A stretch of DNA of 53,560 nucleotides from a virus: positions 1-53,560 of IMG/VR virus record IMGVR_UViG_3300006754_000025. One strand, given 5' to 3'. Below are positions 34,338 to 53,560 of the stretch, one piece after another. The notes under the pieces were generated by a model. The model was not told the origin of the DNA. It searched no databases and worked only from the letters and a program-made list of their open reading frames with translations. A program made the translations under genes and the position numbers. Numbering within the stretch: the first letter of the stretch is position 1; each line of letters opens with the position of its first letter.

Positions 34338-34340
34338 CTG

Positions 34341-35246: not shown

Positions 35247-35248
35247 GT

Positions 35249-37429: not shown

Positions 37430-37433
37430 GTAA

Positions 37434-37760
37434 TTACTCCTTGATGTAGCGGAACCAGCCTGTGACGCGACCGGTCGTGGTAAGCACGACTTGGAACGCT
37501 TCCCCGGCGACGCATTGAACAACCGGAATCAATTGATTGGCCGGTTTGTCGATCGCCCCGCCTGCGATCAAGCCGACAGGACCGATCTTCACCGTCGCCG
37601 CACTCGTTAGCGAAACGTCGTTCGCGGCGACCGCACGGAGATGGGCTTCGTAGACTGTGATGCGTTGCCCCGCCGTCAACGCAACAACCTCATGCGTCGC
37701 CGCCGTTGCTTCATCGAACTGGACGGTCACCAGTTTCTTAGGGTCAGTTAGAATCGTCAT
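37434..37760 (-). CDS. Small beta-rich head protein
   Basis: This 108-residue protein starts inside the 3' end of the portal gene. It is a short beta-sandwich-like sequence (HEVVALTAGQRITVYEAHLRA ... GEAFQVVLTTTGRVTGWFRYI). The size and composition resemble head decoration or Ig-like phage proteins. No family is recognised. Confidence 0.55.
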   Translation of the reverse strand: MTILTDPKKLVTVQFDEATAATHEVVALTAGQRITVYEAHLRAVAANDVSLTSAATVKIGPVGLIAGGAIDKPANQLIPVVQCVAGEAFQVVLTTTGRVTGWFRYIKE

Positions 37761-40176: not shown

Positions 40177-40679
40177 TCAGTCGATCCTGCGGTTACGCGT
40201 TGGGTCGTTCGGCTCTTAATCACGCTACTAACCGTCATGGCGTTCCACTTGCCGCCGACTTCTTTCGCAATCTCTTTATTGGACTTGCCGGCTGCGTTCA
40301 GTCGCATAATCTGCACACGCTCTTGCTCGCCCGTCTCCGCTTCAGCGACGTGGGCCTGCGCTTGACGCGATTTCGCGATACGTTCCGCGTCCTTGAGTTG
40401 CTGGCGCTGAATCGATTCACTGAGCGTTTCCCAGAGTCCGTACTGGGCGGCGACTGGGTCTTGGACATCCGTTAGCACATGGTTGACGTTGCGTCGCAGA
40501 ACGAACTGCATCGCGTGCTTGGGAAGCGTCGCCAAGTGGCAGCGATTGAGATAATCGATGTCGGTGACGACCGCTGCGATCGGCGTCGCTCGCGTGTCGC
40601 CCTTCTCGTAAAACACGACCTGACAACCGATGACCGTTGTCTCGCCACTGTCGAAGCCTTCTCGCTGTTTGCTACTCAT
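40173..40679 (-). CDS. Small HTH protein, candidate small terminase or packaging regulator
   Basis: This 168-residue protein starts at the ATG at 40679, which overlaps the terminase stop (ATGA); the longer frame to 40757 would run into the terminase gene. Residues 1-70 are beta-rich (TVIGCQVVFYEKGDTRATPI), residues 80-125 helical, and the end has an HTH (IMRLNAAGKSNKEIAKEVG, then WNAMTVSSVI). Its place between the large terminase and the portal fits a DNA-recognition subunit. In most phages the small terminase lies before the large one, so this order is unusual. Confidence 0.45.
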   Translation of the reverse strand: MSSKQREGFDSGETTVIGCQVVFYEKGDTRATPIAAVVTDIDYLNRCHLATLPKHAMQFVLRRNVNHVLTDVQDPVAAQYGLWETLSESIQRQQLKDAERIAKSRQAQAHVAEAETGEQERVQIMRLNAAGKSNKEIAKEVGGKWNAMTVSSVIKSRTTQRVTAGSTE

Positions 40680-42427
40680 CGTTGGGAAACCTCGTTTGTT
40701 GTTGCGCCGGGTCCACACGTCACTGACATGCGATCCTGCTTCGGCGCTGGGGACCACTGACTACGGAAATACTCAAGCGCCGGACTGGCCGGCATAGCGT
40801 TGATTGGCGGCGGCGCGTACTGGAAGTCGCCAGCACACCAGTAGCGGATGCAGTCACAAAGAGGATCGATCTGCCGGCCTGCCGGCTTCTCGCCTGTGAC
40901 GCCGGACGAGGGATGTTCCTCTTTGCGGTACATCGCCATCTGTTTGATAAACGCCGGGCAGTTGCCGGTAACCAGGCGCAGCTTGGGGCGACCGTTCCGG
41001 CGGATGTATAGTGCTTCGCGGACGGCTTCGATTCCGCCCATCAAGTCATCGCTACCCATGCGGAATGTGCCGCCAGTCGAGACGCATCGCAGACTTAGAA
41101 GATTGAACGCGTCTTCGTAATGCTCGCGAACCGTTTTACTGAAGCCCATCGGCGTCGTTCGGCCAGCGTGCGAGTCCATCACGAAGTAATGGAACGACTG
41201 ACTCTTCGCCTTGTGCAAAACGTGCTTCGCCAGCGTGTGGGCGTCGCAGCTGGGGATATAGACTTCGTCGTAAATGACGTGAACATCGCCACCGCATACC
41301 TCGGCAACGTCAGGCGGGGCGATCGCGGTCAGCAGGACGCCAGGGTGCGAGTGACCAGGGTCGAGGATCAAACCGCGACACCAATTCGTCGGCGGCATCC
41401 CGCCGTTCTTCGCGAGGATCTTATCTGCCGCGTCGTAGTCGCCTTCGCTGGCCGGCGGCGTACGGTGAACGAATTCGCTGAAGTTCGGGTAGACACGAGA
41501 CGCGCCGAAGACGAACTCGCCGTCATCACGCGACTTGATTTCCTCTGCGCTCCAGCCCTCTCGCCGCTTCCGTTTCTCGTCTTCCTTGATGAACGGGTTG
41601 TCGCTGAATCGCAAGACGACTTCTTCAACGTCCGGCTTCTTCCGGTCCTGTTGATCTTTCGCCCGTTTGCTCAAATCGACGACGACGTGCGAGCCGTGGC
41701 CAGGCCAAACCGACCAGACGATGCGTCCCTCATGGTCAGAGATACGCGCTTGCCACTCCGCGTAGTGACCAGGAAATTTGATTTTCTCATCGATCCAGAT
41801 GTAGTCGACCGGGTCGCCCATCTTCGGGTCAGCCACCGACGTGAACGCGTAGATGGTCGTGCCGTTCGTTAACTCGCATTTGGTGAACAGGCGGTTGGCT
41901 TTGTCTTTCCAACCCCAGCCTTTGGGGTTAATCAGCCTTTTGGGAATCGCCGGCGGCGAGGGGCGGCGATCGGCTTGACGGTCCTGATCCGTTTCAGGGT
42001 CATACGCTCGCCACTTGTCCGTCTCAAGGTCTTTGACCATGTCGAACAAGCCGCGTTGAAACAGCAATCGATGCAGCGTCTGGCCGATGTGCTTTTCGCC
42101 AAGCCCGATCGTCCACATCGTCATCGGGCGGTTCTGCTCGTGCGCAAAAGCGTGCGGCCCATAGATCGGAAGACTATTGCCGTCACTGTCATAGATCGGA
42201 ATCCCAGTACACGCCGACGCGAACAACATCGCAGCGCACACCGACTTGCCCGATCGGTTGCCGCCTCGCAACAGCAATTCCGACGCGCCCGAATAGAAGA
42301 CCTTCAGTTGGTTGGGCTTGGGACGAAATATATTCAACGCCTCTTTCTCCAACCGCGATCGATGCGCGGCGAGTTTTAAGAGTCGCTGTTGATTGCTAGG
42401 CGTAATGCTACGCTGCGTCTTCGTCAT
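40676..42427 (-). CDS. Large terminase subunit
   Basis: The protein has 583 residues. Walker A GGNRSGKS (55-62) lies in LLLRGGNRSGKSVCAAMLFA; Walker B DYIWIDE lies near 207-213; a nuclease Asp sits in RGLILDPGHSHPGVLL near 350; further nuclease acids are in FHYFVMDSHAGRTTPMG and the C-terminal DPLCDCIRYW. It would pump DNA into the capsid and cut it. It overlaps the zinc-binding gene upstream by 20 bases and the HTH gene downstream by ATGA. It is a clear phage marker. Confidence 0.9.
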   Translation of the reverse strand: MTKTQRSITPSNQQRLLKLAAHRSRLEKEALNIFRPKPNQLKVFYSGASELLLRGGNRSGKSVCAAMLFASACTGIPIYDSDGNSLPIYGPHAFAHEQNRPMTMWTIGLGEKHIGQTLHRLLFQRGLFDMVKDLETDKWRAYDPETDQDRQADRRPSPPAIPKRLINPKGWGWKDKANRLFTKCELTNGTTIYAFTSVADPKMGDPVDYIWIDEKIKFPGHYAEWQARISDHEGRIVWSVWPGHGSHVVVDLSKRAKDQQDRKKPDVEEVVLRFSDNPFIKEDEKRKRREGWSAEEIKSRDDGEFVFGASRVYPNFSEFVHRTPPASEGDYDAADKILAKNGGMPPTNWCRGLILDPGHSHPGVLLTAIAPPDVAEVCGGDVHVIYDEVYIPSCDAHTLAKHVLHKAKSQSFHYFVMDSHAGRTTPMGFSKTVREHYEDAFNLLSLRCVSTGGTFRMGSDDLMGGIEAVREALYIRRNGRPKLRLVTGNCPAFIKQMAMYRKEEHPSSGVTGEKPAGRQIDPLCDCIRYWCAGDFQYAPPPINAMPASPALEYFRSQWSPAPKQDRMSVTCGPGATTNEVSQR

Positions 42428-42935
42428 TTTCGTCCGCCAATAAACGCAATCCCATTTGGGACGCCATGCGCTCCACTTCGGCGCTTACGTCTTCCAACTC
42501 CATCGCGTCGATGTCTGTATTGGCGGGGCGATGTTCAGCTGCTTTCATGTGCAGCCGGACCAAGTCACGGAAGTAGTCAAGCACCAGCCGCGAACCAGGG
42601 TTCCTTGACATGGCGGTGTCGACTTGGTGTTTCCACTCAAGGCAGAAACCCTCAAGCCCGCCATGCATCGACATCATGCGATCGCACACCTGGACGACTT
42701 CGGCGTATTTGTCGCCAGCTTGCAAAAGGATGCTGCTGGTCTGCTTCATCAACTCGCGCTTCTCGCGGCTGATGGTCGGGTCTACTTCCGGCTTTCCCTC
42801 TTTCGCCATCTGGGCGTCGAGGCGGCATTGTCGACACAGGTTGTAATGCTGACCGTCCACGCTCTTACGAATCGGGCGCTTGCAATCAGAATTGCGACAC
42901 TTGTGTTTTTTGTCGTTGCCGTTGTTTTCAGTCAT
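42408..42935 (-). CDS. Zinc-binding protein upstream of the terminase
   Basis: A 175-residue protein with an N-terminal Cys4 cluster CRNSDCKRPIRK ... YNLCRQCRLD (C-x(4)-C-x(14)-CxxC), followed by helices (RELMKQTSSILLQAGDKYAEVVQV) and an acidic end (ADENDEDAA). It overlaps the terminase by 20 bases. A DNA-binding or packaging-complex role, possibly replacing the small terminase, is plausible. Its start lies only 9 bases past the T-run of a strong terminator. Confidence 0.5.
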   Translation of the reverse strand: MTENNGNDKKHKCRNSDCKRPIRKSVDGQHYNLCRQCRLDAQMAKEGKPEVDPTISREKRELMKQTSSILLQAGDKYAEVVQVCDRMMSMHGGLEGFCLEWKHQVDTAMSRNPGSRLVLDYFRDLVRLHMKAAEHRPANTDIDAMELEDVSAEVERMASQMGLRLLADENDEDAA

Positions 42936-42944
42936 CGCCTTACC

Positions 42945-42983
42945 AAAAAAGCCGCGACTCGGTTTACTACGCCGAATCGCGGC
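42945..42983 (-). terminator. Rho-independent terminator between capsid and packaging genes
   Basis: On the minus strand GCCGCGATTCGG (42972-42983) and CCGAGTCGCGGC (42951-42962) form a 12-base stem (one mismatch) with a 9-base loop, followed by TTTTTT (42945-42950). It splits the virion operon after the capsid and decoration genes and before the packaging genes. Confidence 0.9.
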
Positions 42984-42985
42984 TC

Positions 42986-43007
42986 CCTACTCTGGAACTG
43001 ACGCTCC
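42986..43007 (+). repeat. CCTACTCT-n-GACGCTCC element, copy 3 (plus strand)
   Basis: The 22-base stretch has CCTACTCT, 6 bases, GACGCTCC. Its 3' part also forms a small hairpin CTGGA-actgacgc-TCCAG. It lies between the end of the decoration gene (43024) and the terminator, and has no -10 at the usual distance. Confidence 0.5.
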
Positions 43008-43023
43008 AGTGATTCAGCTTTTG

Positions 43024-43536
43024 TTAGGAATACAACAGGTTCAGCCACACCCGCCCGGTCGTGCTGGCGATCCCCGCCATAGCGCGGCCAACATCGTTGT
43101 CCGTTGGAGGGGATGAGGCGTTGTCGATCTTGCCGCCGGCAGCGCAAGCGACAATCGTGTCAGCCGTAACCGTTCCGAGCGCGTGCGCAGTACACGGACC
43201 CTCTTGAACGATCCAGAACCAGCTACCGACGGGCACGCCGCCTGAGCCGATGTATTCATCCACTAGCCCAGCCGGCTGATCGGTCGCAGCTGCATAGTCG
43301 TCGACTACTTTGCCGAACGAACCAGCCTCATAAGTGACGAGCAAAGACGCGGTAAGCGTCGTCGCATCGTTGTTTTGAACCAACCGACATTTGACGAGCG
43401 AGTTGCTATTGCGAGGCTTCACGCCTTGCTGCGACCAGTCAACGTCGGGGAACCACTTGACCAAGCCTTCCGCATCCGACGGAATACTCGTCCAAGACTT
43501 ACCTCGGGGCATTGAACCCATTCCAGCACCAGCCAT
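43024..43536 (-). CDS. Head decoration-like protein
   Basis: A 170-residue protein with a disordered start (GAGMGSMPRGKSWTSIPSDAE), then beta-rich sequence (LVKCRLVQNNDATTLTASLL; GGVPVGSWFWIVQEGPCTAHALG; TVTADTIVACAAGGKID). The GSWFWIVQEGPC.A segment resembles capsid-associated DUF2190-type proteins. It sits right after the capsid genes and before the terminator, so it is probably made in large amounts with the capsid. Confidence 0.55.
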   Translation of the reverse strand: MAGAGMGSMPRGKSWTSIPSDAEGLVKWFPDVDWSQQGVKPRNSNSLVKCRLVQNNDATTLTASLLVTYEAGSFGKVVDDYAAATDQPAGLVDEYIGSGGVPVGSWFWIVQEGPCTAHALGTVTADTIVACAAGGKIDNASSPPTDNDVGRAMAGIASTTGRVWLNLLYS

Positions 43537-43619
43537 CAGATCACCTCTCTCTCAAAAAGTTCCGCCTGCGTGCTGTCGGGGTTCACCCTGTTCACTCACA
43601 CGCAGCCGCTTGTTCCGCT

Positions 43620-44060
43620 TTACGCGAAGGTGATGGCGTCCGATGCGACCAACTTCCCATTGGGAAGAACGACGATCAGATACCATGTGTCGATGCTCGA
43701 CTCTTCAACATTGATGTCGAAGTCGCCGTCAGATTCACTCGTGACAAACCCGGCTTTGTCAGCCGTCGTTTCTTCCAGCACGCCGTCGGTGCCGATCGAG
43801 ATTCCAGAGTCCGGCGCCGTACTAGCGATCGAATCGCCGTTCGCGTCGTCGGACAGATAAACCCGCACGCACGAACGAACTGTCATGTCGAGGCCGCCGG
43901 CGTCCAGCAGCTGCACCGCCACGTTGATGACATCTGTCGCTTCAGTGCCAACCGTGATGGTTGCGCCATCCACGCCAAACTTGCCAACGACATCCGCAGC
44001 GGCGGCGTTGCTCCCAAGCGCCGTCGTCAAGGCCGGCACTGTTCCTGATTTCAAAGCCAT
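43620..44060 (-). CDS. Capsid decoration/Ig-like protein
   Basis: The protein has 146 residues; the ATG at 44060 has GGAG 8 bases upstream, and the codon before it is TTG. It is acidic and beta-rich (GATITVGTEATDVINVAVQLL; RSCVRVYLSDDANGDSI; IDTWYLIVVLPNGKLVASDAI). The pattern fits a one-domain Ig-like decoration protein that binds the outside of the head. Position, between the major capsid gene and a second decoration-like gene, supports this. Confidence 0.6.
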   Translation of the reverse strand: MALKSGTVPALTTALGSNAAAADVVGKFGVDGATITVGTEATDVINVAVQLLDAGGLDMTVRSCVRVYLSDDANGDSIASTAPDSGISIGTDGVLEETTADKAGFVTSESDGDFDINVEESSIDTWYLIVVLPNGKLVASDAITFA

Positions 44061-44077
44061 CAAATCGCTCCTTCGGC

Positions 44078-45175
44078 TTAGGCCAAGTCTTTGATCAGCG
44101 CGAAGTATTTCGGCTGATACCGTGCGTTGCCGAAGAAGCCGGCTTTGAAGAGGTACGCATCCGACTTGATGTCGTAGTACGGTCCTCGTGTGCCGAACAA
44201 AACGTCATCCCAGGACGCGAGTTCCATCTGATGGACGTTGATCGCGTAGACTTCCGTCGCCGGCACGTCAAATTCGTACTTGACCATCACGCCGTCTTGA
44301 TTGAGCGTGTCGGGGAAGCCGAGGTCGCGGGCTTCGGGGTGAGGGATAATGTTCCGAAACTTCGCTTCGTGATAGTCTTGGAAGCCGTTGAACTTGTTGT
44401 TGCCCATCATGTAACAAGTTGGCCGACCATCTTTGCCGCCGTTCTTCGTGAGCCAGGTCGTGGTTCGACGAAGGATCTTGCCGCAATTGTCTTCCCAGTT
44501 GGTCGTCGCACCCCAAGCGGTGGACGAACTGTTGACGATGATCGGCGACAGGTAGTCGTAATCACTGTCGCCTTTGCCGTCCGGCCAGTCGGTGTTGATC
44601 GTCGAGTTGGGCTTCGTGCCAAGGTCGGTCGACCATTGGCCCGACTCCGACGCGAGCGCCGTCGATCGAGTGCCATACGTGTCGCTAGGAACAGCGACAA
44701 TATCGCCAGCGGCGACGGTTCCGTAGCCAAGGAACGACTGCAGACCGTGAAGCCGGTTGCCGTTTCCAGTGGCGTAGCCGTCGATGTAAAGCTCACCGTG
44801 GAAGTGGTCGTCCAACGACTTCTTCAGGTTGGGCATAATCCGCTTGTAGCGATTGATGATCGCCACGTTGCCCTTGTTCATCAGCGTGTTCTTAAAGTCC
44901 ATCTTGTCCGTGGCGACATAGCCGCGAACATCGACGTTAAGCTGCCGATAGAGGTCGTGTTCGTCGAACGAATACTCGCCACTGGCGCCATGCGATTGCA
45001 CGGGCGGTTGCGAAAATTCGACGTTCCAATAACAGGACTCCCCGTTTTCGTTGAACGAAATTCGTCCAGCTTCGGACAGCAGTCGTAGGAAGAGTCGCCG
45101 CCGTACCGTCAGGTCGGCAGCGCCTGCGAAATACTTTCGCGCAGTCGTGTTAACGACCGTGAGGGCTTCAGCCAT
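44078..45175 (-). CDS. Major capsid protein
   Basis: The protein has 365 residues and lies directly after the scaffold-like gene. Features include a helical start (TARKYFAGAADLTVRRRLFLRLL), the central GEYSFDEHDLYRQLNVDVRGYVATDKMDFKNTLM and RYKRIMPNLKKSLDDHFHGELYIDG segments, and TCYMMGNNKFNGFQDYHEAKF. I associate this design with an HK97-fold capsid family lacking a fused protease. No cleavage site is evident. GGAG precedes the ATG. Confidence 0.75.
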   Translation of the reverse strand: MAEALTVVNTTARKYFAGAADLTVRRRLFLRLLSEAGRISFNENGESCYWNVEFSQPPVQSHGASGEYSFDEHDLYRQLNVDVRGYVATDKMDFKNTLMNKGNVAIINRYKRIMPNLKKSLDDHFHGELYIDGYATGNGNRLHGLQSFLGYGTVAAGDIVAVPSDTYGTRSTALASESGQWSTDLGTKPNSTINTDWPDGKGDSDYDYLSPIIVNSSSTAWGATTNWEDNCGKILRRTTTWLTKNGGKDGRPTCYMMGNNKFNGFQDYHEAKFRNIIPHPEARDLGFPDTLNQDGVMVKYEFDVPATEVYAINVHQMELASWDDVLFGTRGPYYDIKSDAYLFKAGFFGNARYQPKYFALIKDLA

Positions 45176-45189
45176 CTCTTAGACTCCGT

Positions 45190-46434
45190 TTAGATGATGC
45201 CTTGTTTCTTCGATTCCTCGTCAACCATTTCCGCGAAGTCCATGTCCTCCGCTGCACGCTCAGCAGCAGCTGCGACACGCCGATTAGTTGGCGGCGTATC
45301 TGGCTGGCCGTTGATGCGGTTCTTCTCTTTCGCGAAGCCCTCTTTCAATCGCTCATTGCGATGTTTCGGAAGCTCCGGCGAAGTTGGCGCGGTTGGTTGA
45401 GGGGTTTCCTCGCCGCTCGTTGCTGTTTCAGATGGCGATGGAGCGGCGGGGCGCCAATGCTCCATCGCGTAGTCGTTGAGCGCGTTGTCGTCGGCTTCAA
45501 TGTTGTATTTCTCGAAGAAGGCGCGTCCCTGTTCACGGACGGCTAAGAATTGCTGGCCTTCTTCGGACACCTTTGCTGCGCCATCGCCCTGCAGCTGGTA
45601 ACCGCCGTCCGCATCCAAGGCGAACAGCTGCTCACGGTAATGGTGCAAAAAGCCGTTGTACTGCTGGTCGGATTCGCTGAGTTGCTGTTGCTGTCCGAAG
45701 TAGTCTTTGATTTGCGATTGGACTCGCTCATCGAAGTCACCTACTTGTTGTTCAACCAGGCGTTGCGTGGCTTGCTCGACCAGGGTTGGGAATTCGCGAA
45801 CCAGCTTGCGGGCGTGGTCGGCTTCCCAGCGTCGTGCCGTCGTAATCTTGTCGGCGATGGATTGGTCAACCCAGTCCCTCGCGGCGACGAAACGACCCGC
45901 TTCGGCGTCGTACTCGATGTCGCCTCTCGCGACGAGGGCTTCCCACTCGTCGCTAACTTCCGGCGGCGTCCAGTCCGCGAACGGTCCAGGCGTCTCTTCC
46001 TCTGGTTCTGGCTCTGGCTCAGGCGGGGCTTGGCGTTGCTCTTGCCACTCTTGGTAGGCCGGATCGCGAAGCCGTTCAGCGGCGTCCATTCCATCGAGTG
46101 CTTGCCGTTCAAGCTGGGCGACGAAGTCGGCGTCTGTCTCGTAGCCTTCTAGGTCGATCCCCCGTGATCGGTACGCGTCGAGGATTGGCGTGCTAACTGT
46201 CTCAGTTGGCTCGACCGCTGTCTCAGGCTCAGGCTCGGACGGCGTCGTGGGCGCAATCGACTCGGGTGACGGTAGCAAAGCGCTTGAGGGGTCGGCGGTT
46301 TTGTCGTCGCCGCCCTGCAGCTTGGCAGCAGCTTCAGTGAAGACATCAAGCGGAGTTCCACCATTGACGGGGGCGCCCAGCGTCTCTGGGGCACCTTCGT
46401 TCATGTCATCTGTGAAGTCGTGTTGCTTTGCCAT
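45190..46434 (-). CDS. Scaffolding-like protein, first gene of the virion operon
   Basis: This 414-residue, acidic, Pro/Glu/Gln-rich protein is predicted to be mostly disordered at the start (PSPESIAPTTPSEPEPETAV) and helical or coiled coil in the middle (KLVREFPTLVEQATQRLVEQ; DFDERVQSQIKDYFGQQQQL). The C-terminus is basic then acidic, like scaffold proteins whose C-terminus binds the capsid protein. It lies directly upstream of the major capsid gene, and no separate protease is seen. It could also be partly a head-maturation protein. Confidence 0.65.
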   Translation of the reverse strand: MAKQHDFTDDMNEGAPETLGAPVNGGTPLDVFTEAAAKLQGGDDKTADPSSALLPSPESIAPTTPSEPEPETAVEPTETVSTPILDAYRSRGIDLEGYETDADFVAQLERQALDGMDAAERLRDPAYQEWQEQRQAPPEPEPEPEEETPGPFADWTPPEVSDEWEALVARGDIEYDAEAGRFVAARDWVDQSIADKITTARRWEADHARKLVREFPTLVEQATQRLVEQQVGDFDERVQSQIKDYFGQQQQLSESDQQYNGFLHHYREQLFALDADGGYQLQGDGAAKVSEEGQQFLAVREQGRAFFEKYNIEADDNALNDYAMEHWRPAAPSPSETATSGEETPQPTAPTSPELPKHRNERLKEGFAKEKNRINGQPDTPPTNRRVAAAAERAAEDMDFAEMVDEESKKQGII

Positions 46435-46511
46435 CTCGTCTCCCGGCTGCTCGTTGCTGGATGCAACTCGTAACCGAGGGACCGCGCAAACTTAAAACAC
46501 CTCAGCAGCGG

Positions 46512-46541
46512 TTGGCCGTAGACAGGGGGACACGGTAGAAT
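46512..46541 (+). promoter_or_regulatory. Putative promoter for the DUF1580-type gene
   Basis: TTGGCC (46512-46517), 18 bases, TAGAAT (46536-46541), about 30 bases before the first ribosome site. It lies in the divergent gap with the virion operon, for which I could not find a convincing minus-strand promoter. Confidence 0.5.
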
Positions 46542-46576
46542 AAAAGCAGACCCGGTAATTCATGGAGAGAAAATCG

Positions 46577-46852
46577 ATGTCCTGCGCAATCTTGGATGAA
46601 TCGCCGTTTATCATCACTGACGCCAAACACAAGTGTGTCTACAGTTACCGCCAGCTAGAGCGGTGGTCGCGGGAAGGACTCAGGGCTGGCGACGACAAAA
46701 AGGGGCCGATCGTCAAGCTCGAAACAGTTCGCATGACGACAGGGAAAGCGACCAGCCTGGCGGCAATCCGCCGATTCCTACTGGCGCTCAACGACTCGTC
46801 AGAGAAGTGCGACCGCGCTAGAATCGAAAACTACGTTCCATCACGGCAGTAA
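46577..46852 (+). CDS. DUF1580-type small DNA-binding-like protein
   Basis: This 91-residue protein starts at the ATG at 46577 with GGAGAG 7 bases upstream; the ATG at 46562 lacks a ribosome site. The sequence VYSYRQLERWSREGLRAG ... VKLETVRMTTGKATSLAAIRRFLLAL follows the DUF1580 plan (L-x-R-W-[SA]-R-x-G-[VL] ... LE-x-x-[RV]-x-G-x-x-x-T-S-x-x-A-[LI]-x-R-F), a small family common in planctomycetes and resembling MerR/excisionase-type winged helices. It may be an excisionase or a transcription factor for the accessory block. It is the best clue to the host lineage. Confidence 0.65.
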   Translation: MSCAILDESPFIITDAKHKCVYSYRQLERWSREGLRAGDDKKGPIVKLETVRMTTGKATSLAAIRRFLLALNDSSEKCDRARIENYVPSRQ

Positions 46853-46894
46853 TTTTGGTAGGATCACCGGGTGTCTGACATAAGGAGCAAACAG

Positions 46895-47029
46895 ATGGCA
46901 AATTCCAGTGGCGCCCAAAAGGGCGGAAGCAACAGTGGACAAGGCGGACGCGGCCCGACGAAACTTCCGAGCAAGAAGATGACCACCGTCAAAGGTGCGG
47001 CTATCAAAGGCCAAACGTCCAAGAAGTAG
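46895..47029 (+). CDS. 44-residue Gly/Lys-rich peptide
   Basis: An ATG with AAGGAG 7 bases upstream opens a 44-residue frame: Gly/Ser-rich first half (SSGAQKGGSNSGQGGRG) and Lys/Thr-rich second half (KLPSKKMTTVKGAAIKGQ). No family is recognised. The strong ribosome site and the position between two clear genes on the same strand support it being real. Confidence 0.6.
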   Translation: MANSSGAQKGGSNSGQGGRGPTKLPSKKMTTVKGAAIKGQTSKK

Positions 47030-47095
47030 AAACAGCCCGCTGCGGGGTGGAGCCCGCAACGAGCCTCACAACGAACCCTAATAGGAGGGAACGTC

Positions 47096-48229
47096 ATGTC
47101 TGATGACATTCTAAAACGCTGCAGCAAGTGTGGGCAAGAGAAGCCTCGCGACGACTTCTACAACTCGATCGCTGACGAAGACGGCAAAAAGCCTGACTGC
47201 AAAGCCTGCTACACGCGAGGCACACGCAAGAAAGTTCGTCAAACGCCACTCTGGCGTGAGAAGAAGGCGCTTGACGCCAAGATCGCGAAACTCAATAGCG
47301 AACGCGAAGACCTCGTCTTCTTCGAGGCGTTTGAAGCCGACCGCGAACCCAAGATGTTCGAGTACATCCGCGTGTCGGACGACAAGCAGGTGGATAGCGG
47401 CTTGGGGCTTCAAGCCCAGGACCGGCGGCTGCATCACTTCTCGGCGATGATCGCAGAGTCAAACGACATCGACCCCAAAGCAACCGAGCGGTTTTCCGAG
47501 GAGGGTGTGTCTGCCGCCAAGATACCGCTTATCGAGCGCCCCGCCGGCAAGAAGTTGAACTCGAAGCTGCGTCGCGGCGACCACGTCGTCTTCGCTAAAG
47601 TCGATCGCTGCTTTCGCAACCAGAAAGATTTCGTCCTCACGCAAGAACTGTTCAACGCTAAAGGCGTCAAGATGCATTTCGCAGACTTGGGCATCGACAC
47701 GTCGACTCCCCAGGGTGAGATGATGCTGACTACTCTCGTCGCATTTGCGCAGTTGGAGTCACGCCAGACTGGTGAGCGAGTCAAGGAAAGCGTCGCAGCT
47801 GGCCGGCAGAACGGCTATTGGGCCGGACCCTCGCCAGCGGGTTACGAATCCGTGCGAGTCAAAGGTGAGAAGGGACGCAAGCGGCTGCGGATCAAATACG
47901 AACTCACGGCGTACATGCGTCTGATCTTCCGCTACCGCCACACCTACCGCATGCCCTTCGAGCAGATCAGCGACGCGATCGAAGTTGCGATGGCTCGCAA
48001 GCAAAACCGCAAGCCGTATCACCGAATCACCTGCAACGGTAAGAACGACCGCTACTTCAAGGTTGCACGGATTCGGTGTCTGTACCGCAATTACTGCAAA
48101 CACACCGCCAAGGTCGAACCATTGACCGTCGAAATCGATCCGACCCCACAAGGACAGATGATTGGCCGTATCGCTGCGGAGAAAGTCGGCGGGCTCCCCC
48201 GCACCGACAGGAAACGTAAACCCGCTTAA
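47096..48229 (+). CDS. Serine recombinase with N-terminal zinc finger
   Basis: The protein has 377 residues. A strong ribosome site (AGGAGGG) precedes the ATG. Residues 9-38 form CxxC-x(22)-CxxC (C9, C12, C35, C38), an HNH-like zinc finger. Then FEYIRVSDDKQVDSGLGLQAQ holds the catalytic Ser94 of the resolvase domain, with KVDRCFRN as the conserved DR-x-x-R motif and TLVAFAQLESRQTGERVKE as the E-helix. A recombinase domain follows (AGPSPAGYESVRVKGEKG ... IFRYRHTYRMPFEQISDAI). The usual C-terminal zinc ribbon and coiled coil of large serine integrases are absent. It could integrate the phage or invert a segment. Confidence 0.8.
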   Translation: MSDDILKRCSKCGQEKPRDDFYNSIADEDGKKPDCKACYTRGTRKKVRQTPLWREKKALDAKIAKLNSEREDLVFFEAFEADREPKMFEYIRVSDDKQVDSGLGLQAQDRRLHHFSAMIAESNDIDPKATERFSEEGVSAAKIPLIERPAGKKLNSKLRRGDHVVFAKVDRCFRNQKDFVLTQELFNAKGVKMHFADLGIDTSTPQGEMMLTTLVAFAQLESRQTGERVKESVAAGRQNGYWAGPSPAGYESVRVKGEKGRKRLRIKYELTAYMRLIFRYRHTYRMPFEQISDAIEVAMARKQNRKPYHRITCNGKNDRYFKVARIRCLYRNYCKHTAKVEPLTVEIDPTPQGQMIGRIAAEKVGGLPRTDRKRKPA

Positions 48230-48240
48230 GGACCGAAACG

Positions 48241-48477
48241 ATGGCCGAAGAATATCGCTACCCAACTGTAATTCACCCCGACGCCCTTTATGGCTTCCAA
48301 CACCTGCGCAAAGAGATGGGTTTTGGCGAATCGCTACTCGCCCGAATCAAGAGCGAAGGCGGCGAAATCTACTACTACGGACGTGGCGCCTGCATCACCG
48401 GCGCCACGCTGATCGCGCACATTAAAAAACATGGTCGCAAGGAGCATCCGAACGCATCAAAACCCGTCGGTGGGTGA
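48241..48477 (+). CDS. Small Xis-like/HTH protein
   Basis: This 78-residue protein begins 11 bases after the recombinase stop. HPDALYGFQHLRKEMGFGES is followed by LLARIKSEGGEIYYYGRGAC and ITGATLIAHIKKHGRKEH, the plan of MerR/excisionase-like winged helices in which a Gly-Ser-x-I/L-x-Y-x-x-[GR] wing follows a helix pair. Together with the recombinase next to it, it is a likely recombination directionality factor. Confidence 0.6.
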   Translation: MAEEYRYPTVIHPDALYGFQHLRKEMGFGESLLARIKSEGGEIYYYGRGACITGATLIAHIKKHGRKEHPNASKPVGG

Positions 48478-48481
48478 AAAT

Positions 48482-48562
48482 TTGCATGCCCGCGACTTAT
48501 ACGCTATAGTGGCGATCCAGTTACTAAGGTATCCGATCGCTCGACTCGTGACTAATCGTGAC
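48482..48562 (+). promoter_or_regulatory. Promoter with TCGTGACT elements
   Basis: TTGCAT (48482-48487), 17 bases, TATAGT (48505-48510) is a good sigma70-type promoter pointing right. TCGTGACT (48546-48553) and TCGTGAC (48556-48562) lie about 36 bases further on, matching the repeats at 3340-3436. The transcript would be antisense to 48552-48833 and would then reach 48852. Confidence 0.45.
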
Positions 48563-48833
48563 GCTCGATCGGTGAAAACCACGGTTCGATGAAGAACCCG
48601 TCGACAGCCCAGTCCAGTTCGTCTGAAGCTCGCTTCATATCGTCTGCGACCAAGCCTTCGTGCAGGTATTCAAAGAAAGTGGTCCCGTGTAGACGCAACC
48701 GACAAAGTCGATAAAGGCATTCACCTTCGTCTGTCGGGGTGCGCACTGCGACCGTCCAGGTTTCGACGTGAGGGATCTGGTTGTGCCAGGGGCCGCCGAA
48801 GAATCGTATCCTTCCACTCATGTTTAGATTCAT
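48552..48833 (-). CDS. Small FxGGPxH-type phage protein
   Basis: A 93-residue protein (ATG 48833; 48821 is also possible, both with weak ribosome sites). It opens with the IRFFGGPWHNQ pattern found in many small phage proteins, followed by beta strands (VETWTVAVRTPTDEGECLYRLCRLRLHG) and a helix-strand end (ELDWAVDGFFIEPWF). Function is unknown. It is divergent from the gene at 48852 with only an 18-base gap. Confidence 0.6.
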   Translation of the reverse strand: MNLNMSGRIRFFGGPWHNQIPHVETWTVAVRTPTDEGECLYRLCRLRLHGTTFFEYLHEGLVADDMKRASDELDWAVDGFFIEPWFSPIERHD

Positions 48834-48851
48834 ACCCGAAAAGGGGACGCT

Positions 48852-49277
48852 GTGGCAAAAAAATCGAGTGCTGTCCAATACGGGGCGAGGCTTTCATGGA
48901 CTCGGGCTCGCCGATTAGCTGAACTCTGCGAGTTAGAGGAAGTGGGCGAAGTGCGTGGATTCCTGTCAGAGTTGAAAAAGGCTGGCCGCTCTGACGACAT
49001 CGAGTTGCTTGACGACGAGGGCAACGACAAACGCAACCCGACCATCAAAACAATGGCCGAGGAATGCAAAAAACACCTAGCGAAGCCGAAAAAAACGCCG
49101 ACTTCCCGAAAGCCACGAGCCGCCAGGGCAGCGTCTGCCGCCGTCGTCTCGGTCGCTCAGCAGGAAGCCACCGACACGTTCGCCCTGCTCAAAGAGATTC
49201 GGTCGTTGCAGAACAAGTACGGTTCCAAGGAAGTTAAAGAAGCGACCGCTTTCGTCGCTGATCTGCGAGGCGACTGA
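48852..49277 (+). CDS. Hypothetical helical protein
   Basis: This 141-residue protein starts at a GTG with GGGGA 6 bases upstream. Residues 10-60 are helical and charged (RARRLAELCELEEVGEVRGFL; ELKKAGRSDDIELLDDEG); residues 75-105 are a basic linker (KPKKTPTSRKPRAARAAS); the end is helical (DTFALLKEIRSLQNKYGSKEV). A DNA-associated accessory protein is possible; no family is recognised. It overlaps the next gene by TGATG. Confidence 0.55.
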   Translation: MAKKSSAVQYGARLSWTRARRLAELCELEEVGEVRGFLSELKKAGRSDDIELLDDEGNDKRNPTIKTMAEECKKHLAKPKKTPTSRKPRAARAASAAVVSVAQQEATDTFALLKEIRSLQNKYGSKEVKEATAFVADLRGD

Positions 49278-49702
49278 TGAAGATCGGGGCGAACAAACTC
49301 GCGCGGCCTGGCCACTGCTTCGAGGACACGTTCTGCATTCATCACAACGGCTGGTATGACGAGTTGGATGCCGAATGCCTGCTTGTCCACGGCTACCCGC
49401 ATCTGACCGACAACATCGACAGCGGGCACGCTAAAGGTACGCCCTTTGGCCACGCTTGGCTGGAAATCGACCTTCCTCTCAAAGGCTTCGGGGCCGAGGT
49501 ATTGCCGTGCGTCATCGATCCGTTGTACGGCTTCACTGACCACGCGAAGCCGATGCCGCGTAAACTGTACTACATGGTTGGCGAAATTGAGGAAGCGGAC
49601 GTGCGCCGCTACACCAAACGGGAAGCCCGCCAGATGACTGTGGAGCATAAGCACTACGGCATCTGGCATGACGGACCAGAAGGAGCGATCTTTACTGACT
49701 AA
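49277..49702 (+). CDS. Putative Cys/His/Asp hydrolase-fold protein
   Basis: A 141-residue protein with a Cys-His-Asp arrangement: Cys14 (RPGHCFEDTF), His59 (FGHAWLEID) and Asp81 (VIDPLYGF). LLVHG followed by GHAW-x-E and a downstream Asp is the pattern I know from small phage proteins of the papain/transglutaminase class. A helical end (RRYTKREARQMTVEHKHYGIW) follows. The activity is unproven; it might process a host protein or peptidoglycan peptide. Confidence 0.45.
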   Translation: MKIGANKLARPGHCFEDTFCIHHNGWYDELDAECLLVHGYPHLTDNIDSGHAKGTPFGHAWLEIDLPLKGFGAEVLPCVIDPLYGFTDHAKPMPRKLYYMVGEIEEADVRRYTKREARQMTVEHKHYGIWHDGPEGAIFTD

Positions 49703-49865
49703 TCTGATAGACTAATCCGTGTGCGTGGCCAGGATGGTCGGACGTACGAGGTCTGTTGACGGCGATCGGGAACGACCCTGCCGCCAATGCAAGTCGGTTT
49801 CACACCGGCTGCTTTGGTGGCACCCGGCGCACGTTAGCGGATATTGATAGACAGAGACAGGATTA

Positions 49866-49879
49866 GTTTGGTCCCAAAC
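49866..49879. promoter_or_regulatory. Palindromic operator candidate upstream of the HTH gene
   Basis: GTTTGG-tc-CCAAAC is a perfect 14-bp inverted repeat 15 bases before the ATG of the HTH protein at 49895. That is a normal place for autorepression. Confidence 0.55.
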
Positions 49880-49894
49880 AAAAGAGGGATCGTT

Positions 49895-50131
49895 ATGGAT
49901 CATGCAGCCGAGCGGCGTTTGAAGAACGGCGTCAAGAATGTACTCACAGAATTGGAGGAATCCCGCGTAGACCAGCGAGTGTCCTGGGCGGTGCTTTCCA
50001 GCCGATCGGGAGTTAGTGAATCGACCTGTCGCCGCGTCCTCGCCTACACGTCCAAAACAGTCAATTTTCTCAGCGTATGCAAAGTCGCAGCTGCGTTGGG
50101 ACACCGTATCTCCTTCAGGGAGAGAAACTAA
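49895..50131 (+). CDS. Small HTH regulator
   Basis: The protein has 78 residues; the ATG at 49895 has GAGGGAT 5 bases upstream and is preferred over the ATG at 49844. Residues 28-70 fit a lambda-repressor-type HTH (SWAVLSSRSGVSESTCRRVL ... NFLSVCKVAAALGHRISF). A 14-bp palindrome lies just upstream. It is the only compact Cro/repressor-like protein in the window and the best candidate for a lysogeny switch, although it lacks a cleavage or dimerisation domain. The preceding 49703-49843 shows no gene. Confidence 0.6.
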   Translation: MDHAAERRLKNGVKNVLTELEESRVDQRVSWAVLSSRSGVSESTCRRVLAYTSKTVNFLSVCKVAAALGHRISFRERN

Positions 50132-50153
50132 CGTCTTTTATGGAGCGACAATC

Positions 50154-50429
50154 ATGGAATGGGTGACCATCTTAGCGCCGATCTTTCTGAAACTCTTCGA
50201 GCGTTGTCAGGAAGATAATAATAAATCGCGGGCCAACCGCATCAAGCGAAACGGACCACTTGTTCGGATGCGACTCGCCAGCCAGTTGCGAGGGCAGGGT
50301 TACCGAGGCAAGCGACTTCGACGCGCGCTCAACGACGCGCGGGACGACATCGCATCGGCGTCTGAAGAGGAAATCGAATTGTTCCTCGACGACGTGGAGC
50401 GGGAACACGCAGCTGCATCTGCCAACTAA
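50154..50429 (+). CDS. Small basic/acidic helical protein
   Basis: This 91-residue protein has GGAG 9 bases before the ATG. A short hydrophobic start (MEWVTILAPIFLKLFERC) is followed by a basic middle (KSRANRIKRNGPLVRMRLASQLRGQGYRGKRLRRALND) and an acidic end. The start could be a membrane or lipid-facing helix. No family is recognised. It is followed by a large inverted repeat. Confidence 0.55.
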   Translation: MEWVTILAPIFLKLFERCQEDNNKSRANRIKRNGPLVRMRLASQLRGQGYRGKRLRRALNDARDDIASASEEEIELFLDDVEREHAAASAN

Positions 50430-50436
50430 GGAATGT

Positions 50437-50495
50437 GGGGACGCCGGGTTTTTTTCACTCTTGTGGACAAATGTTCTACCGGCGTCCCCCGTTTT
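50437..50495 (+). terminator. Long-stem inverted repeat, likely terminator
   Basis: GGGGACGCCGG (50437-50447) and CCGGCGTCCCC (50479-50489) form an 11-bp stem with a 31-base loop, followed by C-GTTTTT. A run of seven Ts also follows the left arm. The remaining bases to 50625 hold no gene. Confidence 0.6.
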
Positions 50496-50625
50496 TCTCT
50501 CGTGGCTTTCTGCAAATACATCTCCGACCCTGACGGCGGGTTGTCGCCAGGGGCGTTAACACCCTGGGCGCTCGCGATCCGTTAGGCAAGAGCGTCGCCG
50601 TTCGGATGGAGAAGAGGGAGAAATC

Positions 50626-50868
50626 ATGAAGCTCAGCGAAACGATGATTAGCCCAGCTGGCGTTCTTCGATGTTGCCTCGCCCACTGCTTCGACGGCATG
50701 GCGGACGATACGGAAGTCGAGCTTGGGCAGACGATCGCTTGTAAACACTGCGAGCGTGAATTCACGCTGACGACTGGCGAAACGCGATTCACGAGGGTTC
50801 AGTCTGTGCGACTCGCCGAGTGGCGCCCAACCGATGAGGACCAAGCTAACGCCACGACCGAACCCTGA
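50626..50868 (+). CDS. Small Cys-rich zinc-binding protein
   Basis: An 80-residue protein with GAGGGAG 6 bases before the ATG. A Cys/His set (LRCCLAHCF ... IACKHCEREF) suggests a zinc ribbon, the last part being the familiar C-x-H-C-x-x-x-F-T-L of transcription- or DnaJ-like ribbons. It converges with the lysis cassette, overlapping the end of 50846-51202 by 23 bases. Confidence 0.55.
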   Translation: MKLSETMISPAGVLRCCLAHCFDGMADDTEVELGQTIACKHCEREFTLTTGETRFTRVQSVRLAEWRPTDEDQANATTEP

Positions 50869-51202
50869 ACCATTGGCCGTTGCTGGCTTGGCACGCGGCG
50901 TCGCCAGTCAGCGTCATCCCGTAGCCAGGCACGCACGTCCCACAACTCGGCGTGGAGCCAACGCCCCAGCCTTCAAAGTTGCCGATGTTCGCGCCAACAT
51001 GGTAGTAGGCGTAGTTGGCCGCCATGTAGTTCGCTTCGGCCACGCATCGCTCTTGATCGTTGGCGGCGACGCCCCAGACGTTGACGTACGTGTAAGCGTA
51101 ACTTGTGGACCGTTGGCGAAACCATCGGCGTCGCGCTTGGGTTTCTGGCGTGACGGCGGCGAAGAGAAACAGCACGCCGAGCAGCGAGAGTAGATATTTC
51201 AT
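50846..51202 (-). CDS. Secreted planctomycete-type Cys protein
   Basis: This 118-residue protein has a clear signal peptide (KYLLSLLGVLFLFAAVTPETQA) followed by a mature part with ERCVAEANYMAANYAYYHVG, FEGWGVGSTPSCGTCVPGYG, MTLTGDAACQASNGQWFRVR and a final SWR. This A-x-Y-M-A-x-N ... F-E-G-x-G-x-G ... TC-x-P ... GM-x-LTGDA ... R-V-R-x-W-R pattern is one I associate with secreted proteins of planctomycetes. It is the last of three overlapping minus-strand genes behind the holin-like gene, so it may act on the host envelope during lysis. Confidence 0.65.
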   Translation of the reverse strand: MKYLLSLLGVLFLFAAVTPETQARRRWFRQRSTSYAYTYVNVWGVAANDQERCVAEANYMAANYAYYHVGANIGNFEGWGVGSTPSCGTCVPGYGMTLTGDAACQASNGQWFRVRSWR

Positions 51203-51567
51203 TTGACTTTCTGTTCCAGGTTTTTGACGCGTTCTTCTAAATCGATCACATCGCGAATAACACCTTGGGGATGAGGAAGCCCGTCAGGACCGAGATTACA
51301 GTGAGCATCAAGGTCAGTTCTAACGCGCTCAATGCTTCGCTTGAGCGAGACTGTTTCCTCTTTGAGTGTTTCCTCAATGCGTTCCAGCCGACCGCGATTC
51401 TCACGAATGTCGAATTCAAGAGCGGCACGCGTCGAATAGTAAGCGCCAATAATACCGCCAATTGGCACCAGCAAGACCAGTAAACCACGAGCGGCGTTAA
51501 GGAGTTTTGCATCAGTAGATTGGCATGGCGCCAACCTTCTCGATTCATTGCGTTCTTCATTTGCCAT
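51199..51567 (-). CDS. Membrane-anchored coiled-coil protein, spanin-like
   Basis: The protein has 122 residues, from the ATG at 51567 (GGGGGC 6 bases upstream). A charged start is followed by one membrane segment (LLVLLVPIGGIIGAYYSTRAA), then a coiled coil (ENRGRLERIEETLKEETVSLK and VIDLEERVKNLEQKV). Anchor plus periplasmic coiled coil resembles an inner-membrane spanin or a holin partner. It overlaps the holin-like gene by 11 bases and the secreted gene by 4. Confidence 0.55.
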   Translation of the reverse strand: MANEERNESRRLAPCQSTDAKLLNAARGLLVLLVPIGGIIGAYYSTRAALEFDIRENRGRLERIEETLKEETVSLKRSIERVRTDLDAHCNLGPDGLPHPQGVIRDVIDLEERVKNLEQKVK

Positions 51568-51796
51568 CTTTGCCCCCGATAGGACGTTCAATAGGGGCAC
51601 CCGTAAGGAGCCTCAACACTGCGTTGCCAACGCCAATGAACACCGTAATCCACGGCAGGGCTTTGGGGGTGGTGATTGCGTTAGCGCCGATGGCTAGATC
51701 GATCGCAAGCAACGCGAGAGTGATCGCGTTGAACCAAAGAGTTTTGGAGAGATACCAAGGTTTCGCGCCATTGGGCGCATCAGGAGCATTGGACAT
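51557..51796 (-). CDS. Holin-like membrane protein
   Basis: The protein has 79 residues, from the ATG at 51796; a GTG at 51868 would add 24 residues but has a poor ribosome site. Sequence WYLSKTLWFNAITLALLAID followed by PWITVFIGVGNAVLRLLTGA has two membrane segments, the SKT-[VL]-W-F-N start and the N-x-x-L-R-L-x-T-x-x-P-I end that I associate with a phage holin class. It would form the lysis pore. No endolysin is recognisable beside it; the cysteine peptidase at 203-1108 or the hydrolase-like protein at 49277-49702 could serve. Confidence 0.65.
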   Translation of the reverse strand: MSNAPDAPNGAKPWYLSKTLWFNAITLALLAIDLAIGANAITTPKALPWITVFIGVGNAVLRLLTGAPIERPIGGKDGK

Positions 51797-51978
51797 TTGC
51801 CTGTCACTTTCCTGAAACCTCGCCCGCCATTCTAGGAAACTCGCCCATGATCGCCAACCGGAAAACACCGCCCCCGTCTAAGAAAGCCGAGATGGTCGCT
51901 GGCGTCCTTGAACGCGGCATTCAGCCCGCGCCATAACTGCGATGACGCTTGACGGTAGCGGCAGAATCCGTACGCTGG

Positions 51979-52093
51979 GCGGATGACCGGCGCATAAAAT
52001 ACGCAAGCTGCTCCTTGGCGGCTCAGCGCGGGCGGGCGTCATCCGCAACACTCAATGCCTCGCCGAGTAGTGATCCCTCGGCGGGGTGTTTTT
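51979..52093 (+). ncRNA. Structured leader or small RNA ending in a terminator
   Basis: GCGGATGAC (51979-51987) and GTCATCCGC (52038-52046) form a perfect 9-bp stem enclosing 50 bases. After 11 bases CCTCGCCGAG (52058-52067) pairs with CTCGGCGGGG (52077-52086), one G-T pair, followed by TGTTTTT. This is a folded RNA ending in a terminator 30 bases before the secreted-peptide gene, which fits either an sRNA or an attenuator. The rest of the 51797-52123 gap holds only a doubtful 29-codon frame at 51848-51937. Confidence 0.5.
52058..52093 (+). terminator. Rho-independent terminator
   Basis: A 10-base stem (52058-52067 with 52077-52086), 9-base loop and TGTTTTT tail, directly upstream of the gene at 52124. 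Confidence 0.75.
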
Positions 52094-52123
52094 CAGTCCA
52101 CGAGAATTCCACGGAGCAAGAGA

Positions 52124-52357
52124 ATGCGAACCGCCGTAATCCTGATCGCCCTACTATTCGCCACCCCTGCCTTTGCTGGCCGACTGGTCCCAGTCCAGAA
52201 GTCAGCCCAGAAGGTAGCGGCCCAGAAGTCCGCCCCCGTCGCAGCCCAGAAGGCGTCGCAGAAAGGCGCCGTCCAGAAAGGCGCTCGACGCGTCCGACGA
52301 ATCCGGCTGTTTGGCTCGCGTCGAGCCCGAGCCTGTGCCGCCGGCGTTTGCCGATGA
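52124..52357 (+). CDS. Small secreted basic peptide with QKS/QKA repeats
   Basis: A 77-residue protein, ATG 52124 with GGAG 7 bases upstream. A signal peptide (RTAVILIALLFATPAFA) precedes repeats of the type [VA]-Q-K-[SAG] (VQKSAQKVAAQKSAPVAAQK) and an Arg-rich end (ARRVRRIRLFGSRRARACAAG). Small secreted proteins of this style are frequent in planctomycetes. The mature part would be strongly cationic and could bind DNA, RNA or the envelope. Function is unknown. Confidence 0.6.
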   Translation: MRTAVILIALLFATPAFAGRLVPVQKSAQKVAAQKSAPVAAQKASQKGAVQKGARRVRRIRLFGSRRARACAAGVCR

Positions 52358-52379
52358 CCAACTACCACCGGGGGGGGAA

Positions 52380-52424
52380 GTTCGATCGTTCGGTAACTGT
52401 TCGCCGAACGATCGAACCCCTTTT
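52380..52424 (+). terminator. Strong 14-bp hairpin terminator
   Basis: GTTCGATCGTTCGG (52380-52393) and CCGAACGATCGAAC (52404-52417) are a perfect stem with a 10-base loop, preceded by a G run and followed by CCCTTTT. It ends the secreted-peptide transcript. Confidence 0.8.
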
Positions 52425-52621
52425 CAGGCGCGGAGTTACCGCTATATTGGCTCCCGTTGGACCCAGTCCAACACACTGACCGGGCCGTCTACCTGCCCCA
52501 GGCGAGCCGGTCGCTTTTATGCGCCGTATGACTGGGCGGCGTCGGGGTCAGGTCCAGCCCACGTTGGCCGCCCGGCGCCGTTCGGATCATGGAAGCGGTT
52601 GGCGGTTCGTTTTCTTTGCCG

Positions 52622-52705
52622 CCATTTGGGTTTCAGTAGGCCACGCTTCCACCATTTGGGTCAAAAATGGGTCAATTTTGACCTACGTCGCATTTGTCGT
52701 ACAAT
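52622..52705 (+). promoter_or_regulatory. Promoter with palindromic operator upstream of a small RNA
   Basis: TTGACC (52678-52683), 16 bases, TACAAT (52700-52705). The -35 is the right half of a perfect palindrome GGTCAA-tt-TTGACC (52670-52683), and a third half-site GGTCAA lies at 52659-52664 (GGTCAAAA also pairs with TTTTGACC). CCATTTGGGT is repeated at 52622-52631 and 52652-52661. The first 200 bases of the gap (52425-52621) show no gene I can support. Confidence 0.65.
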
Positions 52706-52711
52706 CCAGGC

Positions 52712-52779
52712 TCCCCATGTTACTCAACATGGCCTCCAGCCGCTGATGTAGTGTCCCCCCAATACATCAGCGGTTTTTT
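52712..52779 (+). ncRNA. Putative phage small RNA, about 68 nt
   Basis: The RNA would start about 7 bases after the TACAAT. It has a first hairpin CCATGTT-actc-AACATGG (52715-52732) and a second, CCGCTGATGTA (52740-52750) with TACATCAGCGG (52763-52773), followed by six Ts. Both stems are perfect. No frame of useful length fits between promoter and terminator. Nothing matches a family I know. Confidence 0.6.
52740..52779 (+). terminator. Perfect 11-bp terminator of the small RNA
   Basis: CCGCTGATGTA, 12-base loop, TACATCAGCGG, TTTTTT. The T-run leads straight into TCGTGACT (52779-52786), a copy of the repeated control element. Confidence 0.9.
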
Positions 52780-52798
52780 CGTGACTGGGCGACTCTAA

Positions 52799-53065
52799 AT
52801 GCTGAAATCAACTCGCAATAAACACGAGTTCGTCCGCCAGTGGGTTGATCGCGGCGCGAAGATTCGCGAGGTCCTTGAGGCTGACGGCAGCCGACGTGGA
52901 AGACTTTTGCGGCGAATACCGCAATGCAATCAGCGACAAAAGGTTTTGATTGACGCCCCGGCCAAAATCACTACAACCAGGCGTACCTACTCTACCGACG
53001 CTCCTCTGGTTGCCAACGCACCGGGGAAACCAAGCGAAACGCAGCCCAAATACTCGCCCGAGTAG
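52799..53065 (+). CDS. Doubtful basic small protein
   Basis: An 88-codon frame with an ATG 19 bases after the small RNA terminator but no clear ribosome site. The first half looks coding (KSTRNKHEFVRQWVDRGAKI; REVLEADGSRRGRLLRRI), the second half is Thr/Pro-rich and less convincing. An overlapping minus-strand frame is also open. TCGTGACT lies just upstream. I keep it with low confidence. Confidence 0.35.
   Translation: MLKSTRNKHEFVRQWVDRGAKIREVLEADGSRRGRLLRRIPQCNQRQKVLIDAPAKITTTRRTYSTDAPLVANAPGKPSETQPKYSPE
52986..53004 (+). repeat. CCTACTCT-n-GACGCTCC element, copy 4 (plus strand)
   Basis: CCTACTCT, 3 bases, GACGCTCC. It lies inside the doubtful frame 52799-53065 and lacks a -10 at the usual distance. 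Confidence 0.5.
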
Positions 53066-53560
53066 GAAGGCGAAACCGGCAGCTGTCGCCGTCATGGAAG
53101 GGTCTGAAACGACCCGCTACACAACCATCGAAGACAGTCGAAGTCGTCAGGATCGGCCAAAAACCGAAACACGCAAGACGCTTCAACGTGGTGGACCTCC
53201 GAGTGTCCCACGCCCCCAAAATGGTATGGGGACCCGTTATGCGCTGACACAAACGATCGTAGCGCGAACCGCACCGTATCTCCGCTTGAGCCGGAAAAAC
53301 GGACTCGAAGGGATGTCCCGCTGAAGCCCCCTAGCGGCCTCACTGGCGAGGGTTAGCGTTCCGCCTCTCCCTACCCGCCAAATCGTGCGAGGTGAATAGA
53401 CAGGCGAAGGGTGGATGACAGAAACGGGGGAAAAATCTCCAGGGTTGATAATACAATAAACGCACGCCCGCGCGTGGGCACCGCCCCCTGGGTTCGGTCG
53501 CCGTAAGTCGTTTGACTGCAACGGGTTAGGCGCTGCCCGACGGTCCCGATTTTCCCCGCC
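53066..53560. other. Right end, no supported gene
   Basis: I see no frame with a ribosome site here. An imperfect inverted repeat TAAGTCGTT/AACGGGTTA (53504-53528) and a GC-rich hairpin-prone stretch (53461-53490) are present. A stop at 53527-53529 shows that the partial gene at 1-188 does not simply continue across a circular join with a normal start, so circularity is not supported by the reading frame. Confidence 0.5.

Follow-up and report, generated by a model that had tools for sequence, protein, structure and literature searches.

Phage-encoded, self-terminated small RNAs (sRNAs) are already known as a kind. Lambda PreS (LPR1) and VpdS are short phage RNAs (~50-90 nt) that act in trans (PMC12197685), and lambda OOP, which is antisense to cII, is a short, self-terminated transcript made from pO near the replication region (PMC3985674; PMC12197685). 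For pO, which makes this RNA beside ori-lambda, it is the promoter activity, not the RNA, that affects replication (PMC3985674). In the lambda 6S/pR'-tR' arrangement, a strong promoter meets a terminator at once, with a long operon downstream, and Q antitermination needs a -10-like pause sequence within the first transcribed bases (PMC6606751). The put RNA, ~70 nt long with two stem-loops, lies next to PL (PMC9378689), and HK022 put suppresses terminators.

Here, we analyzed a 53,560-base stretch of viral DNA (the window; IMG/VR virus record IMGVR_UViG_3300006754_000025), extended to a 65.8-kb genome with 12.2 kb past its right end from a near-identical contig (99.98% identity to the window over 34081-53560). 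By a modest preponderance, and as judged from the sequence, we take 52657-52779 to be a genuine free-standing, repressible sRNA gene, producing a non-coding RNA of ~68 nt (RNA B), and the second of two tandem units, A and B (Table 1). RNA B resembles PreS and VpdS in being a short phage RNA, with the trans action known for them being proposed here; it differs in having no sequence relation to them, in belonging to another phage lineage and host phylum, and in its tandem pairing and the operator over its promoter. Like OOP, it is predicted to be short, self-terminated, and near a replication region, whereas no recognized gene lies opposite 52712-52779, and an OOP-type antisense role was rejected because no minus-strand gene was recognized there. 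HK022 put has a similar layout (~70 nt and two stem-loops directly after a promoter), and differs in that the second stem-loop of RNA B is itself a terminator. RNA B is without sequence relatives.

The sequence-only reading had proposed a TTGACC-16-TACAAT promoter with its -35 inside a GGTCAA-tt-TTGACC palindrome and a third half-site upstream, and all of these elements are present base for base. Promoter B has the second-best sigma70 weight-matrix score in the 65.8 kb (12.80), under promoter and terminator rules that are derived from E. coli rather than from the host. The palindrome (GGTCAA-TT-TTGACC, 52670-52683) covers the -35, the third GGTCAA half-site stands at 52659, and the octamer copies are spaced 11 bp apart. 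Among 23 promoter-like sites, promoter B is the only one with its -35 inside a perfect palindrome whose arms are 6 bp long. The genome's plus strand has four TGGGTCAA octamers, two of which fall there. The palindrome by itself is weak evidence, since GGTCAA-NN-TTGACC with at most two mismatches gave five matches against 2.3 expected.

Table 1. Features of the control region around units A and B, in window coordinates.
Feature	Position	Strand	Detail
Small signal-peptide gene	52124-52357	+	77 aa; QKS/AQK repeats; in control region
Perfect inverted repeat	52380-52417	.	14 bp; GTTCGATCGTTCGG...CCGAACGATCGAAC; follows gene 52124-52357, ahead of promoter A
Promoter A	52421-52448	+	TTTTCA-16-TATATT; best weight-matrix score in 65.8 kb, 12.85
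Predicted RNA A, tandem partner	52449-52518	+	GGCTCCC, 7-bp hairpin, weaker terminator-like hairpin
Direct repeat	52619-52631 and 52649-52661	.	CC[G/A]CCATTTGGGT; 30 bp apart, upstream of operator
Operator-like block	52657-52683	.	TGGGTCAA at 52657 and 52668, plus palindrome over -35
Promoter B	52678-52705	+	TTGACC-16-TACAAT; 10/12
-35 of promoter B	52678-52683	+	TTGACC; read directly; 16-nt spacer follows
-10 of promoter B	52700-52705	+	TACAAT; read directly
GGCTCCC at expected start site of B	52709-52715	+	common to promoter A
Predicted small RNA B	52712-52779	+	~68 nt; from fold and promoter-plus-terminator scan
Hairpin 1 of RNA B	52715-52732	+	7 bp; loop ACUC
Intrinsic terminator of RNA B	52740-52779	+	stem of 11 bp, or 13 when flanking pairs are counted; loop GUGUCCCCCCAA; U6
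Weak ORF	52799-53065	+	88 aa; starts 20 nt past terminator B; codon score +0.084 per codon
E2, conserved non-coding element	53421-53537	+	GAAAAAT...GGGTTG...ATACAAT...GTTAGGCGCTGCC

The two perfect hairpins that had been described for RNA B were likewise recovered. Specifically, these are a 7-bp hairpin (CCATGTT 52715-52721, ACTC, AACATGG 52726-52732) and an 11-bp terminator stem (CCGCTGATGTA 52740-52750, the 12-nt loop GTGTCCCCCCAA, TACATCAGCGG 52763-52773) that runs into six Ts (52774-52779). The predicted fold, at -28.5 kcal/mol (z = -8.2), is the strongest window within 51.8-54.15 kb, and none of 200 shuffles was as stable. The mechanically called ORFs that cross the unit (52335-52751 and 52519-52746) have codon-use scores below zero, and a 9-codon ATG frame within RNA B (52718-52747) has no Shine-Dalgarno, in agreement with the earlier statement that no protein frame fits. 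At the sequence level, the locus has its own promoter, its own intrinsic terminator, and no coding signal, three of the attributes expected of an sRNA gene.

The unit is more than chance. Both strands of the 65.8 kb were scanned for promoters scoring 10/12 or better that have a terminator stem of 11 bp or longer in the next 220 bases. One pair emerged, at the promoter B locus, and the same rule returned none in 60 dinucleotide shuffles. Matching a consensus does not show function, and conservation does not extend beyond one species, as would be expected of promoter-like and terminator-like sequences assembled by chance in a 2.2-kb non-coding stretch and never transcribed; given the absence of joint occurrence among the shuffles, the unique operator, and a tandem partner built to the same plan, we regard such an origin as very unlikely.

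That partner, unit A, was overlooked by the sequence-only reading. Its promoter lies 257 bp upstream of promoter B on the same strand, and the two are the genome's best sigma70 promoters by weight matrix. Further, both units follow one plan, in which GGCTCCC leads into a perfect 7-bp hairpin no more than about 10 bases from the start and then into a terminator-like hairpin. In RNA A, these elements are GGCTCCC at 52449-52455, the hairpin GTTGGAC-cca-GTCCAAC at 52456-52472, and a terminator-like hairpin formed by GACCGG (52478-52483) and CCGGTC (52507-52512), followed by GCTTTT. Terminator A is weaker than that of B (a 6-bp outer stem and an inner stem, then GCUUUUA, with only four Ts), and the fold of unit A is less extreme (z -3.2). 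A start-proximal 7-bp hairpin occurs at two of the 92 predicted promoters, namely A and B, against a background of 0.56% per 30-nt window (a chance of ~0.2-0.6% for each), and at none of 106 promoters in the relative G005. The inverted repeat just ahead of promoter A probably terminates gene 52124-52357, serves promoter A as an operator, or does both. A third unit considered at 51949-52095 was rejected, having a good terminator hairpin but no convincing promoter at the right distance.

Taken together, the extreme fold of RNA B, the unique promoter and terminator pair, the unique operator, and the plan common to A and B carry the reading of 52657-52779 as an sRNA gene. The earlier proposal, a free-standing sRNA gene with an operator over its promoter, is partly supported, in that it best accounts for the strong promoter, the start-proximal hairpin, the complete terminator, and the absence of both a coding frame and an antiterminator fold.

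The 2.2 kb that contain units A and B are mostly non-coding and precede an iteron-like array and the early operon. Leftward membrane/lysis-like genes close the coding stretch near 51.87 kb, and B is followed, in order, by ORF 52799-53065, E2, 11-bp tandem repeats, and the rightward operon from 54084, the first gene of which encodes an AAA/clamp-loader-like ATPase. Most early-operon genes start with GAAACGATG, often preceded by ACCAGGAGTT. Across L024:3062-13000, a near-invariant translation start, often ACCAGGAGTTGAAACGATG, precedes ~15 early-operon genes, which have GC-rich spacers. The position of ORF 52799-53065 just past the terminator, and its slightly positive codon score, would fit a role of unit B as the attenuator or leader of this ORF, by a type III toxin-antitoxin-like arrangement or by translational attenuation. 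The ORF has no Shine-Dalgarno, homologue, or Pfam, NCBIfam, or PADLOC match, and there are neither antitoxin repeats nor an alternative fold, such that we give this role hardly any credence; its type III toxin-antitoxin form was rejected, as there are no tandem RNA repeats and the ORF matches no family.

More weight attaches to the operon itself. No rightward promoter ahead of 54084 is stronger than A and B (further on, the top sigma70 match on that strand scores 8.3, versus 12.8), and lambdoid early genes often have terminators ahead of them (PMC9378689). It is, accordingly, unlikely but not negligible that a repressor controls A and B as early promoters, with terminators that are overcome later by an antitermination factor, as in lambda pR'-tR'/6S, or by the RNA itself, as in HK022 put, the 68-nt RNA being a by-product. 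Unit B shares with lambda pR'-tR' the strong promoter, the immediate terminator, and the long operon downstream (PMC6606751); it differs in lacking the pause element (there is no -10-like sequence of at least 4/6 in the start region, the best, CATGTT, matching TATAAT at 3/6), in lacking a recognized Q homologue (no N/Q-like protein was recognized among the proteins scanned, which were part of the set), and in having a separate promoter-like element, E2, nearer the operon. An alternative antiterminator fold was sought for RNA B and none was found, the second stem being itself the terminator, and the operon begins ~1.3 kb beyond B, across DNA that is mostly non-coding.

E2 is an element of ~115 nt that occurs in the window and at L025 14649-14759 (minus) within otherwise diverged control regions, and it is common to the window and the relative phages G004/G005. 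Its core, GAAAAATNTNCNGGGTTGNNNATACAAT, is followed 67-70 nt on by GTTAGGCGCTGCC, and the local alignment between the window and G005 scores 62; among 300 shuffles, the highest score was 35. It is the only DNA element in common between the two control regions, and in each phage it precedes the first early genes. It is the best candidate for a common early-operon promoter, or for an att/origin site. Beyond these two phage species, a scan for the conserved pattern returned only chance matches in coding sequence. As a separate promoter-like element nearer the operon, E2 weakens the case for A and B as early-operon promoters. The earlier preference for an sRNA over an mRNA leader, argued from the completeness of the terminator, is thus retained on the strength of E2 and the missing antiterminator fold, and it is softened by the probability that we leave to a terminated leader.

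The region between E2 and the operon bears on a further alternative. At L024:2603-2982, beyond the window end and ahead of the early operon, lie 11-bp tandem repeats (CGCCAAGTGCC, CGCCAACCGTT) that are iteron-like and possibly mark a replication origin; the corresponding region of G005 has GGTCGGCAGG-type repeats. Transcription itself could tune replication initiation, or interfere with neighboring promoters, the RNA having no role in trans, and lambda pO offers a precedent for promoter activity affecting replication (PMC3985674). We consider this improbable, given that the iterons lie ~0.85 kb downstream of terminator B, that the origin is only putative, and that B is co-directional with the operon, not opposed to it.

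Capsid and terminase searches yielded ~10 related viral contigs. Only the near-identical contigs 3300006927 and 3300025133 hold A and B. Collection scans for the promoter with its hairpin, for the operator, and for the holin-like gene returned these two contigs alone, and a collection scan for the first early gene returned only 3300025133. In the relatives found by capsid and terminase (L004-L009, L043-L051), the region is absent or, in G005, has no A/B cassette. Terminase and capsid searches revealed no prophage in bacterial genomes and no relative of the lineage among 50,697 phage records, a DNA search of phage records with the locus gave no match, and Rfam, at gathering and relaxed cut-offs, gave nothing credible for RNA B. 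When the literature was searched for small RNAs and lysogeny in planctomycete phages, a single unrelated review came up. The known copies of the locus do not differ from one another and have no homologue beyond the near-identical contigs, which leaves no variation for testing covariation or conservation.

Two serine recombinase genes, at 47096-48229 and L024:12679-14487, suggest that the phage is temperate; the latter encodes 602 aa with the full large-serine-recombinase domain set and a C-terminal helix-turn-helix. A second, weaker promoter and terminator pair (TTGCCC-18-TAGAAT, stem 12-13 bp) lies at 47137-47034 (-), where the 47096-48229 recombinase gene starts. Directly upstream of this recombinase, 46562-46852 (+) encodes a DUF1580-like, putative DNA-binding protein with 56% identity in relatives. 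The DUF1580 matches, at E = 0.0015 for the 46562 gene and 0.004 for a relative, are weak and below the curated cut-off, and they lend a little weight to the planctomycete host guessed from the sequence at the outset. With the QK-rich signal-peptide protein of 52124-52357, which we take to resemble planctomycete secreted proteins, they point to a host that is probably a planctomycete.

How might such a gene work? In the sRNA gene reading, the sigma70-type promoter B, with its -35 in a tandem/palindromic GGTCAA operator, would drive a ~68-nt RNA to the strong intrinsic terminator. A phage or host repressor, presumed to bind the GGTCAA half-sites, would keep B silent in one state, of which lysogeny is the simplest candidate, and release in the other state would yield a stable 68-nt RNA. 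Its unpaired bases (C13 U8 A2 G1) include the C/U-rich linker CCUCC and loop GUGUCCCCCC, and through such parts the RNA may act in trans by pairing with mRNAs of the host or the phage where these have purine-rich runs resembling a Shine-Dalgarno, with GGCCUCCAG and GUGUCCCCCC as candidate pairing stretches for host mRNAs. Staphylococcal C-rich-loop sRNAs have single-stranded, C-rich, anti-Shine-Dalgarno-like stretches; RNA B resembles them in its C-rich single strands only, with no homology.

For phage mRNAs, no target is supported. Accessibility-weighted duplex energies of RNA B against 41 phage translation starts averaged -1.6 kcal/mol, weaker than the -2.9 of shuffled RNAs, and the early-operon motif ACCAGGAGTTGAAACGATG, included in this test, showed no enrichment. 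One outlier paired GUGUCCCCC of the terminator loop with GGGGGACAC at 46525-46533, in the 46512-46541 stretch ahead of the DUF1580-like gene. It was set aside, as this 9-mer has a single plus-strand occurrence, which chance allows, and falls inside the spacer of a predicted promoter. Counted against the sRNA reading are the pairing with phage translation starts, weaker than for shuffled RNAs, the lack of an outside homologue, the absence of the cassette from G005, the empty Rfam result, the E. coli-derived rules, and the four-T terminator A.

A broader proposal, which we hold to be doubtful, is that the tandem repressible sRNAs, built to one plan (a GGCUCCC start, a 7-bp hairpin, C/U-rich single strands, and a terminator), form an RNA part of the lysis-lysogeny switch in an uncultured lineage of planctomycete phages, with anti-Shine-Dalgarno-like loops that would reach many mRNAs. 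If transcribed, unit B would constitute a self-contained sRNA locus in the control region of a planctomycete phage, and its tandem arrangement and operator would make the locus a candidate part of the phage developmental switch.
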